NCBI GenBank assembly: GCA_013205365.1
Contig: JABMNC010000043.1
Span: forward strand, 1-32,018
Source: Cryomorphaceae bacterium
GTDB lineage: Bacteria > Bacteroidota > Bacteroidia > Flavobacteriales > Schleiferiaceae
Direction of reading: 5' to 3'
DNA length: 32,018 bases
A program made the translations under genes and the position numbers. The notes under the pieces are model-generated. The model ran no database searches. It had not been told where the DNA came from and saw only the letters and a program-made list of their open reading frames with translations. Position 1 is the first letter of the stretch. Every line of letters starts with the position of its first letter. Positions 12,859-19,617 of this stretch are shown here, in pieces.

Positions 12859-14169
12859 TTAGTAACCTGCCGACAAGGCGGACTTGTATCGTTCAAGGCA
12901 ACGCTGTCGCGCAAAAGAATGATCCACGATGGGTTTGGGGTATTTAGCCGTTCCGAATTCAGGGATCCATTGCTTGACGTAGGCCATCTTGGGGTCAAAC
13001 TTCTCAAGTTGACTCTGGGGATTAAATATTCTAAAGTAGGGTGCGGCGTCGTTGCCTGACCCGCTTGCCCACTGCCATCCCCCTACGTTACTAGCCTGGT
13101 CGTAGTCCAGTAGTTTTTGAGCAAAGTAGGCCTCGCCCCATCGCCAATCAATCAGCAAGTGCTTGGTCAAAAAACTTGCTACCACCATGCGCACCCGATT
13201 GTGCATGAATCCGGTGGCGTTTAGCTGGCGCATGCCGGCATCGACCATAGGGTAACCGGTGCGTCCCTCGCACCAAGAATTAAAGTTTTCTTCGGAAGTT
13301 TCCCATTCAATCCGGTCGTAGGCTGGCTTCACCGCCTTGCTCGGACTGTCGGGAAAGTGGTAGAGGAGCATCTGGTAAAAATCCCTCCAAATGAGCTCAC
13401 TGACAAAGGTCTCGCTGTGGTCGGCCGCATGGCGAAGCAGCTTCCGAATGCTCAGGGTTCCGAAGCGAAGGTGTAGGCCAAGGCGCGTGGTTCCCTGTTC
13501 TTCCGCCGGAAAATTGCGTCGACTGGCATAGGCACGAATCACCTCATCGCTCCACACTCGGGGCGGAACAGGAAGATCCGACGGGCTAAAGTTCATGGAT
13601 TCGAGGCTTGGAATCGGCTTGACCGACGGCTCTTTGCGGAGTCCGCTTGATAGAAGCTCTAATGAATTAAAGTGATTAATCCCCTCTTGGGCCAAGCGCT
13701 CGCGCCACCTGCGGCTGTAGGGAGTAAAGACCGAATAGGCAGTGCCGTCGCCTTTGGCAACCTCAGACTTTTCAAAAACAACATGGTCTTTGGTGCCTTT
13801 GAACCACCTTCCCTCGCTTTGGTAGAGTTGCTCTATTTGCTCGTCCCGCTTACGGGCATAGGGCTCGTAGTCGCGGTTGGCAAAAACCCCTTGAATTTCA
13901 GGATGTTCCGACAACCATTGACGGTGAGCCTCCAGAGGGCTGCCGTAGTGCACCCAAAGCTTGCTACCCCAAGCAGCCAGCTCCATATTGATTTGGTGCA
14001 GCTCCTGGTGTATGAACTGTACCCTCGCGTCACTGCGGTTCTCGAGTTTGTCAAGGATTTCGCGGTCAAATACAAATACCAGTTGAACCGGAACTCCCGT
14101 TTGTAGCGCCCGACACAGGCCTGCATTGTCTTCGAGACGAAGGTCGCGACGAAACCAAAACAAAACCAT
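12859..14169 (-). CDS. phrB: deoxyribodipyrimidine photolyase (class I-type, photolyase/cryptochrome family)
   Basis: MVLFWFRRDLRLEDNAGL; ELIWRDFYQMLLYHFP; GRTGYPMVDAGMRQLNATGFMHNRVRMVVASFLTKHLLIDWRWGE; GGWQWASGSGNDAAPYFRIFNP. Confidence 0.96.
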   Translation of the reverse strand: MVLFWFRRDLRLEDNAGLCRALQTGVPVQLVFVFDREILDKLENRSDARVQFIHQELHQINMELAAWGSKLWVHYGSPLEAHRQWLSEHPEIQGVFANRDYEPYARKRDEQIEQLYQSEGRWFKGTKDHVVFEKSEVAKGDGTAYSVFTPYSRRWRERLAQEGINHFNSLELLSSGLRKEPSVKPIPSLESMNFSPSDLPVPPRVWSDEVIRAYASRRNFPAEEQGTTRLGLHLRFGTLSIRKLLRHAADHSETFVSELIWRDFYQMLLYHFPDSPSKAVKPAYDRIEWETSEENFNSWCEGRTGYPMVDAGMRQLNATGFMHNRVRMVVASFLTKHLLIDWRWGEAYFAQKLLDYDQASNVGGWQWASGSGNDAAPYFRIFNPQSQLEKFDPKMAYVKQWIPEFGTAKYPKPIVDHSFARQRCLERYKSALSAGY

Positions 14170-14171
14170 GG

Positions 14172-14843
14172 CTAAGCCTTGATCGCCTGTATGAATTCTG
14201 CGCGGGCAACTGGTTCACGAAATTTGCCGCTGAAGTGACTCGTCACGGTAGAGCTTTGCGCGTCTTCTACCCCACGCATTTTGACGCAGAGGTGCTCGGC
14301 ATCTAGGTAGACCGCCACGTCTTCGGTTTTAAGTACTTTTTTGAGCTCTGCAGCGATTTGCTCGGTCAGACGCTCTTGCACCTGAGGCCGTTTAGAAAAG
14401 TACCGCACCAAACGATTCAATTTTGACAGCCCTACTACCTCTCCCGAAGAGAAGTAGGCCACGTGGCAGACGCCCAAAATTGGCACAAAATGGTGCTCGC
14501 AGGTCGAGTGAAGCGTGATGTTTCGCTCAAGAATCATTTCTCCGTACTGGTACCGGTTCTCAAAAAGGGTAACCTCAGGTTTATTCAGGGGATTCAGGCC
14601 AGCAAACTGCTCCAAAACATACATTTTGGCCACCCTTCTCGGGGTATCTTTTAGGGAATCGTCGTTGAGATCCAGTCCAAGAATCTCCATTATGTCGCTG
14701 AATTTGCGGGCAATGCGTTCGATTTTATCGTCGTCGGGCTGCAGAAGATTTTCTTCAATAGTCGGTGTTGCACGTTCTCTGCTGTTGGCCGAGCGCACTC
14801 CGCTTGCCACAAGGGTTCCGTGAAAGGTTTTGTTAGGCTCCAT
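14172..14843 (-). CDS. folE: GTP cyclohydrolase I
   Basis: DTPRRVAKMYV, STCEHHFVPILGVCHVAY, GLSKLNRLVRYFSKRPQVQERLT, EAEHLC-type motif (DAEHLCVKMRG). ORF opens at 14873; MEPNKTF at 14843 is an alternative start. Confidence 0.96.
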   Translation of the reverse strand: MEPNKTFHGTLVASGVRSANSRERATPTIEENLLQPDDDKIERIARKFSDIMEILGLDLNDDSLKDTPRRVAKMYVLEQFAGLNPLNKPEVTLFENRYQYGEMILERNITLHSTCEHHFVPILGVCHVAYFSSGEVVGLSKLNRLVRYFSKRPQVQERLTEQIAAELKKVLKTEDVAVYLDAEHLCVKMRGVEDAQSSTVTSHFSGKFREPVARAEFIQAIKA

Positions 14844-15258
14844 GGTATTCAACAAAATTTCGGGGTGTTTCATACAAAGTAATGTGAAGGTCGAGGGACG
14901 CGGGCAAATGGGGCCTCAGCCAGTGCCAAATCACTACCGCAATGTTCTCTGCGGACGGAACTCGGTCGGCAAATTCAGCAACTTCTTGGTTTAGGTTTCG
15001 GTGGTCAAGCTTAGCCTCAACCTCGCTTTTGATAAGGCTTGAAAGGGTACCCAGGTCAAACACATAGCCAGTCACCGAATCAATTTCTCCTGTTAATCTA
15101 ACGATAAGCTCATAATTGTGACCGTGGTAGTGCGGATTAGAGCACATGCCAAAATAGGCTTCGTTTTGGGCGTCTGTCCAATTTTTGACATAGAGTCGGT
15201 GCGCCGCATTGAAGTGCGCATGGCGACTTACCGATGCGCGTTGGTTCTCAAAATTCAT
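14833..15258 (-). CDS. 6-pyruvoyltetrahydropterin synthase-like protein (COG0720, PTPS-II-type Cx5HGH motif)
   Basis: HAHFNAAHRL...GMCSNPHYHGHNYELIVRLTGEIDSVTGYVFDLGTL...PSAENIAVVIW. Confidence 0.9.
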   Translation of the reverse strand: MNFENQRASVSRHAHFNAAHRLYVKNWTDAQNEAYFGMCSNPHYHGHNYELIVRLTGEIDSVTGYVFDLGTLSSLIKSEVEAKLDHRNLNQEVAEFADRVPSAENIAVVIWHWLRPHLPASLDLHITLYETPRNFVEYHGA

Positions 15259-15779
15259 AGCTTAAGTTGGCTTTGGTATTCGCGGAATATGATTTGAAAC
15301 CAAGCTGTGAATACCTCAGGATGCGAAGTCATTTCTTGGGAGAGCGCATCCATCGATGACCACCTCACGGATTCAACTTCGTTCCTATCGAGCTTCAATG
15401 CCCCGTCGTAGCGTCCAATTATGACATGGTCGAGCTCGTGCTCAATCAGGCCGTTGTCAAATTCTGCCCGATAAATAAAGTGAAACGACTCGCGAAGATC
15501 ATGCAGTTCATGGCCGTTGACTCCCAATTCTTCGCTCAGGCGCCTTTTTGCCGCCTCAATATTAGATTCTCCCTCGCGCTGGTGGCTGCAGCAGGAGTTA
15601 GTCCATAGCAAGGGGGAGTGGTATTTACCTGCGGCTCGCTGCTGGAGCAGGGTTTTACCTTCTGAGTTAATCAAAAAGACGGAGAAGGCGCGGTGAAGGA
15701 GTCCGAGTCGGTGGGCCTCAATCTTCTCCATCCGCCCGACCGGTTCATCGGCTTTATTGACGAGGATAACAGTCTCCAT
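15255..15779 (-). CDS. idi: isopentenyl-diphosphate delta-isomerase, type 1
   Basis: 174 aa NUDIX protein; LLQQRAAGKYHSPLLWTNSCCSHQREGE, AAKRRLSEELG. Confidence 0.95.
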   Translation of the reverse strand: METVILVNKADEPVGRMEKIEAHRLGLLHRAFSVFLINSEGKTLLQQRAAGKYHSPLLWTNSCCSHQREGESNIEAAKRRLSEELGVNGHELHDLRESFHFIYRAEFDNGLIEHELDHVIIGRYDGALKLDRNEVESVRWSSMDALSQEMTSHPEVFTAWFQIIFREYQSQLKL

Positions 15780-15781
15780 AA

Positions 15782-16615
15782 TTATAGCAGATTGAGCATG
15801 TGCCTCACGAATGAGCTTGCAAAAAGTCGGTATTTTTTGCGGTTACCGATTCGAATCCGTGTCATAAATACTTCGGACGACGGAGTGCGCATGATTTTTT
15901 GAAAGAGCGCATAGTAGTACATATAGGCAATGTACACCCCGAAACGAGAGCCTTTGGGCAGCTGCAGTATGCCTTCGTAGCCCTTTCGAAAGTCTCGCTC
16001 AATGTCTCGCTCAATGGCCATTTTTGCTTCGTCGTTAAAGTTGCTCAGGTCTACATTAGGGAAGTAGGACCGACCAAGAGACTGAAAGTCCTGTGCCACG
16101 TCGCGCAAAAAATTAATCTTCTGAAAGGCAGAGCCGAGCTTCATGGCAAAGGGCGTAAGCTCTTCATAGCGCGCCTGATCTCCTTGGACAAAAACCTTTA
16201 GGCACATTAGGCCAACAACTTCTGCACTCCCTAAAATGTATTGTTCGTAGGTCGCTTGATCGAAGTTTTGGTCCATTAGGTCCATTTCCATAGACTTCAA
16301 GAAGGTATTGATTAGGCTTCGGTCAATTTGGTATTCATTGACCACGTACTGAAAGGATTGAAGCACCGGATTGGTCGATATGCCCTCGTCGATAGCGCGG
16401 TCGGTTTCGCTCCAAAACCGCTCCAGTAGGTCTCGTTGATTTTTGCCGTGGAAGGTATCTACAATTTCGTCGGCGACCCGAACGAAGCCATAAATGGCAT
16501 AAATCGGAGAGCGGAGGGGCTTTGACAGCCCTAGAATACCCAGAGAAAAGGAGGTAGAGTACGCCTTGGTAATTTCTTTACTCGTGGCAATCGAGGTTTT
16601 GGTGTAGAAATCCAT
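15782..16615 (-). CDS. crtB: phytoene synthase (squalene/phytoene synthase family)
   Basis: YSTSFSLGI, IYGFVRVADEIVDTF, GSAFQKINFLRDVAQDFQSLGRSYFP. Confidence 0.95.
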   Translation of the reverse strand: MDFYTKTSIATSKEITKAYSTSFSLGILGLSKPLRSPIYAIYGFVRVADEIVDTFHGKNQRDLLERFWSETDRAIDEGISTNPVLQSFQYVVNEYQIDRSLINTFLKSMEMDLMDQNFDQATYEQYILGSAEVVGLMCLKVFVQGDQARYEELTPFAMKLGSAFQKINFLRDVAQDFQSLGRSYFPNVDLSNFNDEAKMAIERDIERDFRKGYEGILQLPKGSRFGVYIAYMYYYALFQKIMRTPSSEVFMTRIRIGNRKKYRLFASSFVRHMLNLL

Positions 16616-18087
16616 TAGGCGGAGGGATGTTCTTTGGCAACCTCACGGGCGACCACTTCTCCAGAAATTATACAGGGAGGAACGCCAGGTCCAGGAACAG
16701 TAAGTTGACCAGCAAAGTACAAATTGTGGAGCTTTCCCTTAAGGCTTGGCTTGAGAATCGCCGTTTGATCGAGCGTATTGGCGAGACCGTAGGCGTTGCC
16801 AAGATGCGCGTGGTATTCCTTGACGAAGTCGCGGTAGGCAAAGCTTCGTTTGACCACAATGTGGTCGCGAATATCTATACCAATCTGCTTTTTAATGCGC
16901 TCCGATACCATGCCGAGATAGCGCTCGCGAATGGAATCGTCGTCTTCGAGCCCTGTGGCCATGGGGATTAAAATAATGAGGGTATCCTTGCCCTCTGGAG
17001 CCATGGATGCATCGGTAGCCGAAGAAATACTCAAGTAAAAAAGAGGCTTTTCGGGCCACCGCGGGTTGGTGTAAATAGCGTCTGCGTGGGTATCAAAGTC
17101 CGCATCAAAGAAGAGCGAGTGGTGCTCGAGTTCAGGAAGTTTGGTATCTAGACCCAGATAGTACATAAAGGCAGAAGGTGCCATTTTTCGTTTTGCCCAA
17201 TAGTTGGCGGAATAGCGTCGAAACTCAGGCTTTAGGAGTTTTTGCTCAATGTGCGCATAGTCTGCCGAGGCTACTACCACGTCGGCGTCGTAGCAGGTTG
17301 ACCCCACGTAAACTCCTGATATTGATTTGCCTTCGTAGCGAAACCCGGTTACTTCTTGGTTAAAATGAAAACGTGCACCCTGCTCCACCGCAAGTTGGTG
17401 AAAGCCTTTGACTACCGAATACATGCCACCAATGGGGTACCATGTTCCTTGGGCAAAATCCGAGTAGTTCATTAGGCTGTACAAGGCCGGTGTGTTGCTG
17501 GGAGTGGCTCCAAGAAAGAGCACAGGGAATTCTAAGAGCTGCTTGAGTTTAGGATTTTTAACCACCTTAGCAATGCTGCTGCGTATGCTGCTCAATAGGT
17601 CCATGCGAAGCAAGCCGGTGAGAATTCTCATGTCGGCAAACTCAAAAAGGCTTCGAGAAGGCTTTCTGACCAGGTCGTCAATGCCCACGCGGTATTTGTA
17701 CTCTGCATCCTTCAAGAAAACCTTTAGTTTCGCTGCAGATCCAGGTTCGAGCCGCTCGAAGAGTGCCTCGATCTCGTCCATACTGGCTGGAATGGGCATG
17801 GGTCCGTCTTCAAAGTAGATGCTGTAGGATGGGTCTAGCCGCTGCAGCTCGTAGTAGTCTGAGGTTTTCTTGCCAAAATGGCCAAAGAACGTATCGAAGA
17901 CGTCTGGCATCCAATAAAAGGAAGGTCCGAGGTCAAAGGTATAGCCCTCATGGATCCACTGGCGACCACGGCCTCCTGGGATGTCGTGCATCTCGAGTAC
18001 ATCGACCGAATATCCGGCTTGAGCTAGGTATGCGGCGCTCGACATTCCGGCAAAACCGGAACCGATTACTATGGCTTTCTTGGGCAT
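16615..18087 (-). CDS. crtI: phytoene desaturase
   Basis: KKAIVIGSGFAGMSSAAYLAQAGYSVDVLEMHDIPGGRG; C-terminal NLYFAGQLTVPGPGVPPCIISGEVVA. Confidence 0.96.
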   Translation of the reverse strand: MPKKAIVIGSGFAGMSSAAYLAQAGYSVDVLEMHDIPGGRGRQWIHEGYTFDLGPSFYWMPDVFDTFFGHFGKKTSDYYELQRLDPSYSIYFEDGPMPIPASMDEIEALFERLEPGSAAKLKVFLKDAEYKYRVGIDDLVRKPSRSLFEFADMRILTGLLRMDLLSSIRSSIAKVVKNPKLKQLLEFPVLFLGATPSNTPALYSLMNYSDFAQGTWYPIGGMYSVVKGFHQLAVEQGARFHFNQEVTGFRYEGKSISGVYVGSTCYDADVVVASADYAHIEQKLLKPEFRRYSANYWAKRKMAPSAFMYYLGLDTKLPELEHHSLFFDADFDTHADAIYTNPRWPEKPLFYLSISSATDASMAPEGKDTLIILIPMATGLEDDDSIRERYLGMVSERIKKQIGIDIRDHIVVKRSFAYRDFVKEYHAHLGNAYGLANTLDQTAILKPSLKGKLHNLYFAGQLTVPGPGVPPCIISGEVVAREVAKEHPSA

Positions 18088-18599
18088 TAGGCGTGTCCGC
18101 GGATTCCTCGCAGTTGCTCAATCATTTTGCGACGAGCTAAGAATATTCTACTTTTTACCGTTCCGAGTGGAATTCCCATGTGGTTGGCTATTTCTTCGTA
18201 TTTGTAGCCGTTAAAGTACATCATGAAGGCATCAAGATAGGTGCTCTCCACCAGCTCAATTCTATCTTTTATGTTGGTCATTTCATAGGGACTGTCTGCC
18301 TCATCCTCTCTATTGGCCATCATGCCACCGAGGACGTACTGGTTCTCGCTGTCGTCGAGGTAGGTATTTTGATTCTTCTTCTTGCGGTAGTTATTGATGA
18401 AGGTGTTCTTGAGAATCGTGTACAGCCAGCCACGCAGATTCGTCCCCGGTTGGTACTTAGTCTGGTTCTTAATGGCCTTGAAGAAGGTTTCTTGCACGAG
18501 GTCTTCAGCGTCTTCAGAGTGGCGCGTTAGCTTGTAGGCAAGCGCGCGCAAGAATTGCTGATGCTGGTAAATTTGAGGACCGAAGGAATCGTGCTGCAT
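18087..18599 (-). CDS. ECF-type RNA polymerase sigma factor
   Basis: 170 aa; sigma2 DAEDLVQETFFKAIKN...NLRGWLYTILKNTFINNYRKKKN; sigma4 YEEIANHMGIPLGTVKSRIFLARRKM. Confidence 0.93.
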   Translation of the reverse strand: MQHDSFGPQIYQHQQFLRALAYKLTRHSEDAEDLVQETFFKAIKNQTKYQPGTNLRGWLYTILKNTFINNYRKKKNQNTYLDDSENQYVLGGMMANREDEADSPYEMTNIKDRIELVESTYLDAFMMYFNGYKYEEIANHMGIPLGTVKSRIFLARRKMIEQLRGIRGHA

Positions 18600-18606
18600 T
18601 TCTTTT

Positions 18607-18634
18607 GTTTAACGAATGATGTTCAAAGTTAAAC
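18607..18634. promoter_or_regulatory. Perfect 7-bp inverted repeat GTTTAAC-N14-GTTAAAC overlapping the sigma-gene -7 box; candidate regulator operator
   Basis: Arms 18607-18613 and 18628-18634; centres 21 bp apart. Confidence 0.45.
18624..18631 (-). promoter_or_regulatory. -7 box TAACTTTG upstream of the ECF sigma gene (24 nt from ATG)
   Basis: Plus strand reads caaagtta; no TTG found at 17-23 nt spacing. Confidence 0.5.
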
Positions 18635-18723
18635 ATAATAGAGCCATTACCGTGCCACTTTTATAAAGTTTTAGTTAAAAACCTAAACAAAACAATAAAC
18701 TCGGGAGCACCCTAGGAACTGGC

Positions 18724-19617
18724 CTAGACCATTGCGGCTAGCGCTTGGCCTAGGTGGGCCAAAGTCGGGTACACGGTAATGTTCGCGTCCGTATTGGTCC
18801 ATTCCAATGTGGCGAGGCCGGTAACCCAAAGGGGCACGGAGCCCATAACAGAGCGTGCATCCTTGGCGTACTGCGCTACTTGTTCCGGCAAGGGCTGAGT
18901 GGTCCAGACACTTACGACAACCTTAAAGGAACTCGCGTCCTTAAAAATGTGCTTCAAATGCTCCAGGGGCAGGGATTGCCCAAGATTTACAACGACCTTG
19001 CCCTGTGATTTTAGCAAATAATGCAGGTAAAGCAGTCCGAGCTCATGCAGCTCGTCCTGCGGGAGATAGAGCAAAATGCCAGGGTTTTGGGCAGACATTC
19101 GCTGGTCCTCTAAACGATCTAGGGCCGCATAAATCTTTTGCTTAATAATGTTGCTGGCAAAGTGTTCGTGCGCTACACCCAGGGCGTCGGTCTGCCACAT
19201 GTAGCCAATTTGATGAATGAACTCCCCCACCAGCTTGGTGAAGGTGGCCTCCTCGCCTACCTCCTTGATGCTCGCGTCCAAAACCTCGGAGAAGGAGCGT
19301 TCGTCGAGGTCAATGCAGGAATGAACCATCCTAGTAACTTGAGCGGATTGGCTACCGTTGAGTACGGCTTCGTCAAAAACGGTTTGGCAAAGTTGTTCTT
19401 TAGTCAAATCTGCGATCTTGCTAATTCTCCAGCCTTTTTGAATGAGGACCGATACATTGAGAAGGGTTTTTAGGTCTTCGTCGCTGTAGTACCGAATATT
19501 GGTCTCGGTTCGCATAGGAACAACAATATCATAGCGCTGCTCCCAGATGCGCAAGGTGTGTGCCTTGATTCCGGTCATGTGCTCTAAGTCCTTGATACTG
19601 TAGGTAGACTCCATCAT
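18724..19617 (-). CDS. MerR-family regulator with B12-binding domain (CarH/LitR-like)
   Basis: N-terminal MerR HTH (YSIKDLEHMTGIKAHTLRIWEQRYDIVVPMRTETNIRYYSDEDL); C-terminal W(141)x9-E(151)H(152) and ExHxxG (ELHELG, H191). Confidence 0.92.
   Translation of the reverse strand: MMESTYSIKDLEHMTGIKAHTLRIWEQRYDIVVPMRTETNIRYYSDEDLKTLLNVSVLIQKGWRISKIADLTKEQLCQTVFDEAVLNGSQSAQVTRMVHSCIDLDERSFSEVLDASIKEVGEEATFTKLVGEFIHQIGYMWQTDALGVAHEHFASNIIKQKIYAALDRLEDQRMSAQNPGILLYLPQDELHELGLLYLHYLLKSQGKVVVNLGQSLPLEHLKHIFKDASSFKVVVSVWTTQPLPEQVAQYAKDARSVMGSVPLWVTGLATLEWTNTDANITVYPTLAHLGQALAAMV

Follow-up and report, generated by a model that had tools for sequence, protein, structure and literature searches.

Trp131 of the Thermus thermophilus regulator CarH stacks on the adenosyl group of AdoCbl, and the operator of this protein consists of tandem 11-bp direct repeats. 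Its light state is a bis-His form. Reports on the H132A variant conflict, with earlier work describing disassembly and later work a protein that stays mostly tetrameric in the light (PMC10442372). The residue at the His132 position varies among other B12 photoreceptors; it is Arg in CtMerR, Gln in SasPcob and Tyr in AbDPcob, all of which are photoactive (PMC11796333). In SasPcob light turns the dimer into a monomer, yielding water/hydroxo-Co(III) and a shift of the Glu-His helix with no bis-His form (PMC10979010), and no bis-His form is seen in the anaerobic light structure of CtMerR (PMC11796333). As for targets and their control regions, the crt promoter of Myxococcus xanthus carries palindromic sites (PMC9304148), and folE and phrB of P. 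putida are light-induced via the PplR regulators (PMC9758184). The literature that we searched contained no paper on CarH in Bacteroidota, nor any spectrum, binding or light data for the clade considered below.

The stretch of DNA analyzed here (the window) comprises 32,018 nt, positions 1-32,018 of contig JABMNC010000043.1 from a Cryomorphaceae bacterium (GCA_013205365.1). One of its genes probably encodes a light switch that is based on vitamin B12 and acts on carotenoid and DNA-repair genes.

The carH-like gene and its product

The carH-like gene (18724-19617, minus strand) encodes a MerR regulator of 297 aa, as assigned by ORF translation, Pfam and Foldseek. The protein consists of a MerR HTH (residues 6-74; Pfam MerR_1, 7e-17), a four-helix bundle (residues 95-164; Pfam B12-binding_2, 7e-8) and a Rossmann half (residues about 178-297), which is the architecture of CarH and class I LitR; no match of the window protein to Pfam B12-binding PF02310 was reported. 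Class II LitR, which is LOV-partnered and has no usable Rossmann B12-binding half, was considered and ruled out by the lower His motif and the Rossmann fold. Full-length Thermus CarH was the best phmmer match among PDB sequences (5c8d, E = 6e-20). An AlphaFold2 model built with the window protein and 44 distant relatives reached a mean pLDDT of 87.9; its 50 best Foldseek matches in the PDB are all B12 photoreceptors (Thermus CarH, the photocobilin SasPcob and CtMerR), and the match to the cobalamin domains of Thermus CarH has a TMt of up to 0.85 at about 2.6 Å. The NCBIfam CarH equivalog NF052513 gives 94.8 bits for the window protein, below its cut-off of 400, and this model appears to be tuned to near relatives of the type protein.

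Translation of the minus strand agrees with the initial annotation in every residue that it had read from the cobalamin pocket. The codons are those of W141 (19195-19197; Thermus Trp131), Q142 (19192-19194; CAG on the minus strand and hence CTG on the plus strand, exactly where it had been placed), E151-H152 (19162-19167; Thermus Glu141-His142) and E189-L-H191-E-L-G194 (19036-19053), the lower axial ligand motif ExHxxG that includes the counterpart of Thermus His177, all on the minus strand and assigned by translation and alignment. The W-x9-EH stretch aligns without gaps to Thermus CarH in the phmmer alignment, with Q142 under His132 as had been claimed, and the columns W131/H132/E141/H142/H177 of the full-length Thermus protein correspond to W141/Q142/E151/H152/H191. 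The accompanying statement that the AdoCbl-binding motifs are kept holds for two of the three parts of the signature, but of the third part, the S-x-T/V and subsequent G-G elements of the Rossmann half, V237-W-T239 and T266-G267 retain only some positions: the T and the second G are present, the first G is lost, and a Ser is found only with a one-residue shift. Among 126 Bacteroidota-type homologs, a label deduced from the gene content and promoter type of the genomes, E151 is present in 126/126, W141 in 122 and both H152 and H191 in 118. As a sequence pattern the Wx9EH motif is far beyond chance, and the conservation of W141, E151, H152 and H191 supports the AdoCbl binding that had been predicted from the pocket residues. 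Some genomes of the same class also carry copies with a decayed pocket, in which the W, H152 or the lower His is lost (L076, L078, L104, L112 and L115); these may be B12-independent paralogs, in parallel to CarA.

The distribution of B12-related enzymes was surveyed in a family sample (60 genomes searched for carH homologs, 52 positive) and a phylum sample (396 genomes searched, 86 positive). The adenosyltransferase PF01923 occurs in 58 of the 60 family genomes and B12-binding enzymes in all 60, and the CobA-type PF02572 has no match over cut-off in these 60 genomes. The PduO-type PF01923 was not found in the window's own 92%-complete draft genome; it is present in all nine genus-mates, and its absence is probably an assembly gap. 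Loss of AdoCbl supply, that is, B12 independence, was considered for this genome, and the presence of PF01923 in 9/9 same-genus genomes speaks against it. All the other carH-positive genomes of the phylum sample have PF01923, a co-presence that is weak evidence because PF01923 is so common.

The residue at the His132 position

Residues at the His132 position were counted only in homologs keeping the W and the EH, and the counts come from a biased sample. Gln is found in 30/30 such homologs of the window's family and in 46 of the 74 of the main Bacteroidota-type set; the remaining members of this set carry L, I, V, M, G, R, T, S, D or A. Of 117 Bacteroidota-type homologs, one has His; this protein (L113, 7486-8418), with WHKGEIRVSHEH and with crtI and crtB nearby, is the sole one of its type with His after the Trp. 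The cross-phylum sample consists of named genomes, and the narrow alignment used for the genome-collection scan favours Thermus-like seeds; the sample has His in 15/15 Deinococcota, 1/11 Chloroflexi and 0/58 homologs from Proteobacteria, Acidobacteria, Myxococcota and Planctomycetota, and within this sample His132 is regular only in Deinococcota. The initial annotation implied that Gln was an oddity, and this picture is reversed: members of the window's clade regularly have Gln, and it is His that is exceptional outside Deinococcota.

In a tree built without the column of the His132 position, the smallest starred clade that extends beyond the family comprises 33 rows, of which 32 have Gln and one has Leu (L041). 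An alignment of 49 close-clade rows from two sub-clades (minimum and mean identity 28 and 43%) has 28 invariant residues, Gln among them. W141, Q142, E151, H152, E189 and H191 are the same in 49/49 rows, and the invariant residues of the ligand half besides Gln are F109, G138, W141, E151, H152, Q160, K161, L185, E189 and H191. Such invariance implies a strong constraint on the Gln and excludes a chance variant; judged from these sequences, the Gln is probably part of the pocket.

It had been suggested that the light-state chemistry may differ from that of Thermus CarH, unless another His took the adduct position. This suggestion is borne out as far as residue 142 is concerned, since a bis-His adduct at the 132 position is impossible with Gln, and H152 and H191 are the only invariant His residues in the ligand half of the clade alignment. 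A substitute His for the adduct was sought, and the ligand half offers no conserved candidate. The central idea of the initial annotation is thus reasonable and, given the published precedent, not new in kind: these switches probably reset their B12 unlike the textbook protein.

Gene organization and a candidate operator

The gene order in the window, all on the minus strand, is carH - ECF sigma - crtI - crtB - idi - PTPS - folE - photolyase. The first gene of the putative target operon encodes an ECF sigma factor of 170 aa (18087-18599; Pfam Sigma70_r2, 3e-19). It is followed by genes for a crtI/CrtID phytoene desaturase (16615-18087; NCBIfam CrtID, 690 bits against a cut-off of 640), a crtB-like phytoene/squalene synthase (15782-16615; Pfam SQS_PSY, 6e-44), the isopentenyl-diphosphate isomerase Idi (15255-15779), a 6-pyruvoyl-tetrahydropterin synthase/QueD family protein (PTPS; 14833-15258, below cut-offs), the GTP cyclohydrolase I FolE (14172-14873) and a photolyase/cryptochrome family protein (phr; 12859-14169; TIGR03556, 345 bits, below cut-off). 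The order carH, then (sigma) crtI crtB, is shared by the majority of the Bacteroidota-type loci that were examined, and the Thermus carH locus also has phr and phytoene synthase. By analogy with described systems, the crt genes, folE and the photolyase gene would be typical CarH/LitR targets. The segment 12859-15258 places folE and the PTPS/QueD-type gene between idi and the photolyase gene, and their products may provide the photolyase with a pterin or folate antenna.

A perfect inverted repeat, TGTTTAAC-N14-GTTAAACA (18606-18635), lies between carH and this operon, 6 bp upstream of the start of the sigma gene, and is a candidate operator. By sequence, it contains TAACTTTG (18624-18631, minus strand), a match to TAnnTTTG, which we take to be the Bacteroidota -7 element consensus. 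The repeat is the sole site in the window and in the 1.5 Mb genome. When 71 testable carH loci (intergenic regions of at least 30 bases) were scanned, allowing spacers of 12-16 and no more than 3 mismatches, and compared with Markov shuffles, it was found in 62 of them versus 1.9 expected, and with one mismatch at most in 36 of the 71 versus 0.0 expected. The best spacer is 14 in 42 loci and 15 in 17, a -7-like element falls within the left arm in 36 of the 62 repeat-bearing loci, and a second, weaker repeat is present 52-64 bp upstream in 26 loci versus 5 expected. The exact repeat (0 mismatches) occurs once per genome in 9 genomes of the genus, each time at carH. Its core pattern was found in 29/30 carH-bearing versus 5/20 carH-lacking genomes (p = 1e-7, a value that is indicative only as the genomes are related), with 96 versus 7 sites over these 50 genomes. 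On this sequence evidence the inverted repeat is likely the operator for the whole clade, and its description at carH is new here.

Extra repeat sites were seen upstream of genes in some relatives (L274, L276, L279, L281, L283, L284, L285, L288, L289, L290 and L291). Nineteen of the 20 that were inspected lie outside large reading frames, and fasciclin-domain, TetR-type and flavin-reductase genes are among the neighbours. A fasciclin gene also adjoins the Eleftheria homolog, and a flavin reductase gene is near Thermus carH. The extra sites suggest a wider light regulon.

Proposed mechanism

We propose that the window protein is probably an AdoCbl-dependent dark repressor that acts as a dimer on inverted repeats and is released by light without a bis-His adduct. 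The residues, the fold, the synteny, the repeat and its co-occurrence with the gene are observed, and the binding of AdoCbl, the repression, its relief by light and the light state with its cobalt ligands are predicted from them. W141, E151 and H152 would form the cap over AdoCbl and H191 would hold it from below, giving a dimer that would sit on the repeat and mask the -7 element together with the beginning of the sigma-crtI-crtB-idi-PTPS-folE-phr operon. On illumination the Co-C bond would break and the adenosyl group would leave. Because position 142 is Gln, no adduct of the His132 type would form; the cobalt would keep H191 with water or hydroxide above, and Q142 would probably hydrogen-bond the upper ligand or the pocket. 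The departure of adenosyl, together with a shift of the E151/H152 helix, would weaken the dimer, so that the DNA would be released and the operon transcribed. The degraded third B12 motif and the lack of the Thermus dimer salt bridge and Gly160 weigh against this explanation, as do the low NCBIfam CarH score, the missing PF02310 match and the failure to find PF01923 in the draft genome of the window, and the mostly tetrameric state of Thermus H132A in the light, reported in one study (PMC10442372), means that loss of the His could block release.

The degraded motif and the missing salt bridge are also what would be expected of a CarA-like protein, that is, of constitutive DNA-binding dimers with no need for B12, relieved by a partner such as an antirepressor or a sigma/anti-sigma circuit. 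Constitutive dimers would suit the inverted repeats, which in some cases come as a pair spaced by about 54 or 63 bp, and the paralogs in which W, H152 or the lower His is missing point the same way. However, the Trp of Wx9EH and the residues flanking it are absent from myxobacterial CarA (PMC9304148), whereas the present clade keeps the W, E, H and lower His without exception, and we consider a CarA-like mode improbable.

The occurrence of AdoCbl metabolism throughout the family would also allow bound AdoCbl to be the ligand of a non-photoreceptor that reports cobalamin status or redox state. Such a role seems very unlikely, as the predicted co-transcription of photolyase and carotenoid genes points to light and photolability is to be expected of an AdoCbl pocket like this one. 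Slimmer still is the chance that the protein, with its MerR fold and inverted-repeat site, is a MerR-type activator remodelling the promoter instead of a repressor: classical activators of the MerR type have their sites within the -35/-10 spacer, unlike this repeat, which covers the -7 element and start region. The least probable reading, a bis-His light state in which H150 or some other His stands in for residue 142, could draw on the position of H150 next to E151 and on its being His in 38/49 clade rows, but it is N or Q in the others, H135 is variable and there is no other conserved His column.

Extending the AdoCbl-dependent dark repressor beyond the window, we suggest tentatively, at somewhat less than even chances, a phylum-wide CarH-type branch that never forms a bis-His adduct, has a conserved Gln in its largest clade and places dimers on paired inverted repeats over the -7 element. 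This branch would represent a second evolved route from AdoCbl photolysis to DNA release, with a regulon of its own that comprises carotenoid and photolyase genes, to which some relatives would add fasciclin and flavin-reductase genes.

Comparison with known systems

Like the window protein, Myxococcus CarA and CarH combine a MerR domain with a B12-type domain in the control of carotenogenesis; CarA differs in having no Trp and in being B12-independent, and many myxobacterial CarH proteins keep the His after the Trp (PMC9304148). CtMerR from Chloracidobacterium (PDB 8JBS/8JBT) is likewise a MerR-annotated B12 photoreceptor without His at the His132 position, but it has Arg instead of Gln and belongs to another clade. 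The photocobilin SasPcob (PDB 8J2W/8J2X) shares the fold of the B12-binding domain, the Trp/Glu-His cap and the Gln itself (PMC11796333), and has a bilin-binding globin domain instead of the MerR DNA-binding domain.

Thermus CarH (PDB 5C8A/5C8D/5C8F and 8C31-8C37) has in common with the window protein the MerR HTH, four-helix bundle and Rossmann half, the W/EH cap, the lower His, and linked phytoene synthase and photolyase genes. The two proteins are about 22% identical and differ in the change of His132 to Gln and in the third B12 motif, which is only partly kept. The R176-D201 salt bridge of the Thermus dimer corresponds to L190/S215, and Gly160 of the dimer-dimer contact is not Gly in the window protein, although Gly192 is kept as G206. 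The Thermus operator is a direct repeat, whereas the candidate operator of the window's clade has inverted arms separated by 14-15 bp. The missing salt bridge and Gly160 and the likely inverted-repeat operator went unmentioned in the initial annotation, and they indicate that more differs than the adduct chemistry. This clade is set apart from known CarH by its constant Gln, by the loss of interface features present in Thermus CarH and by the inverted repeat that it conserves.

With this clade, nature provides a way to ask whether release requires ligation by His132, a point on which the published H132A data disagree (PMC10442372), and the predicted operator makes such a test easier. The bis-His light state of Thermus CarH, the common model for B12 photoreceptors, is applicable to few proteins of our sample, and the clade would point to green-light switches whose light state differs.
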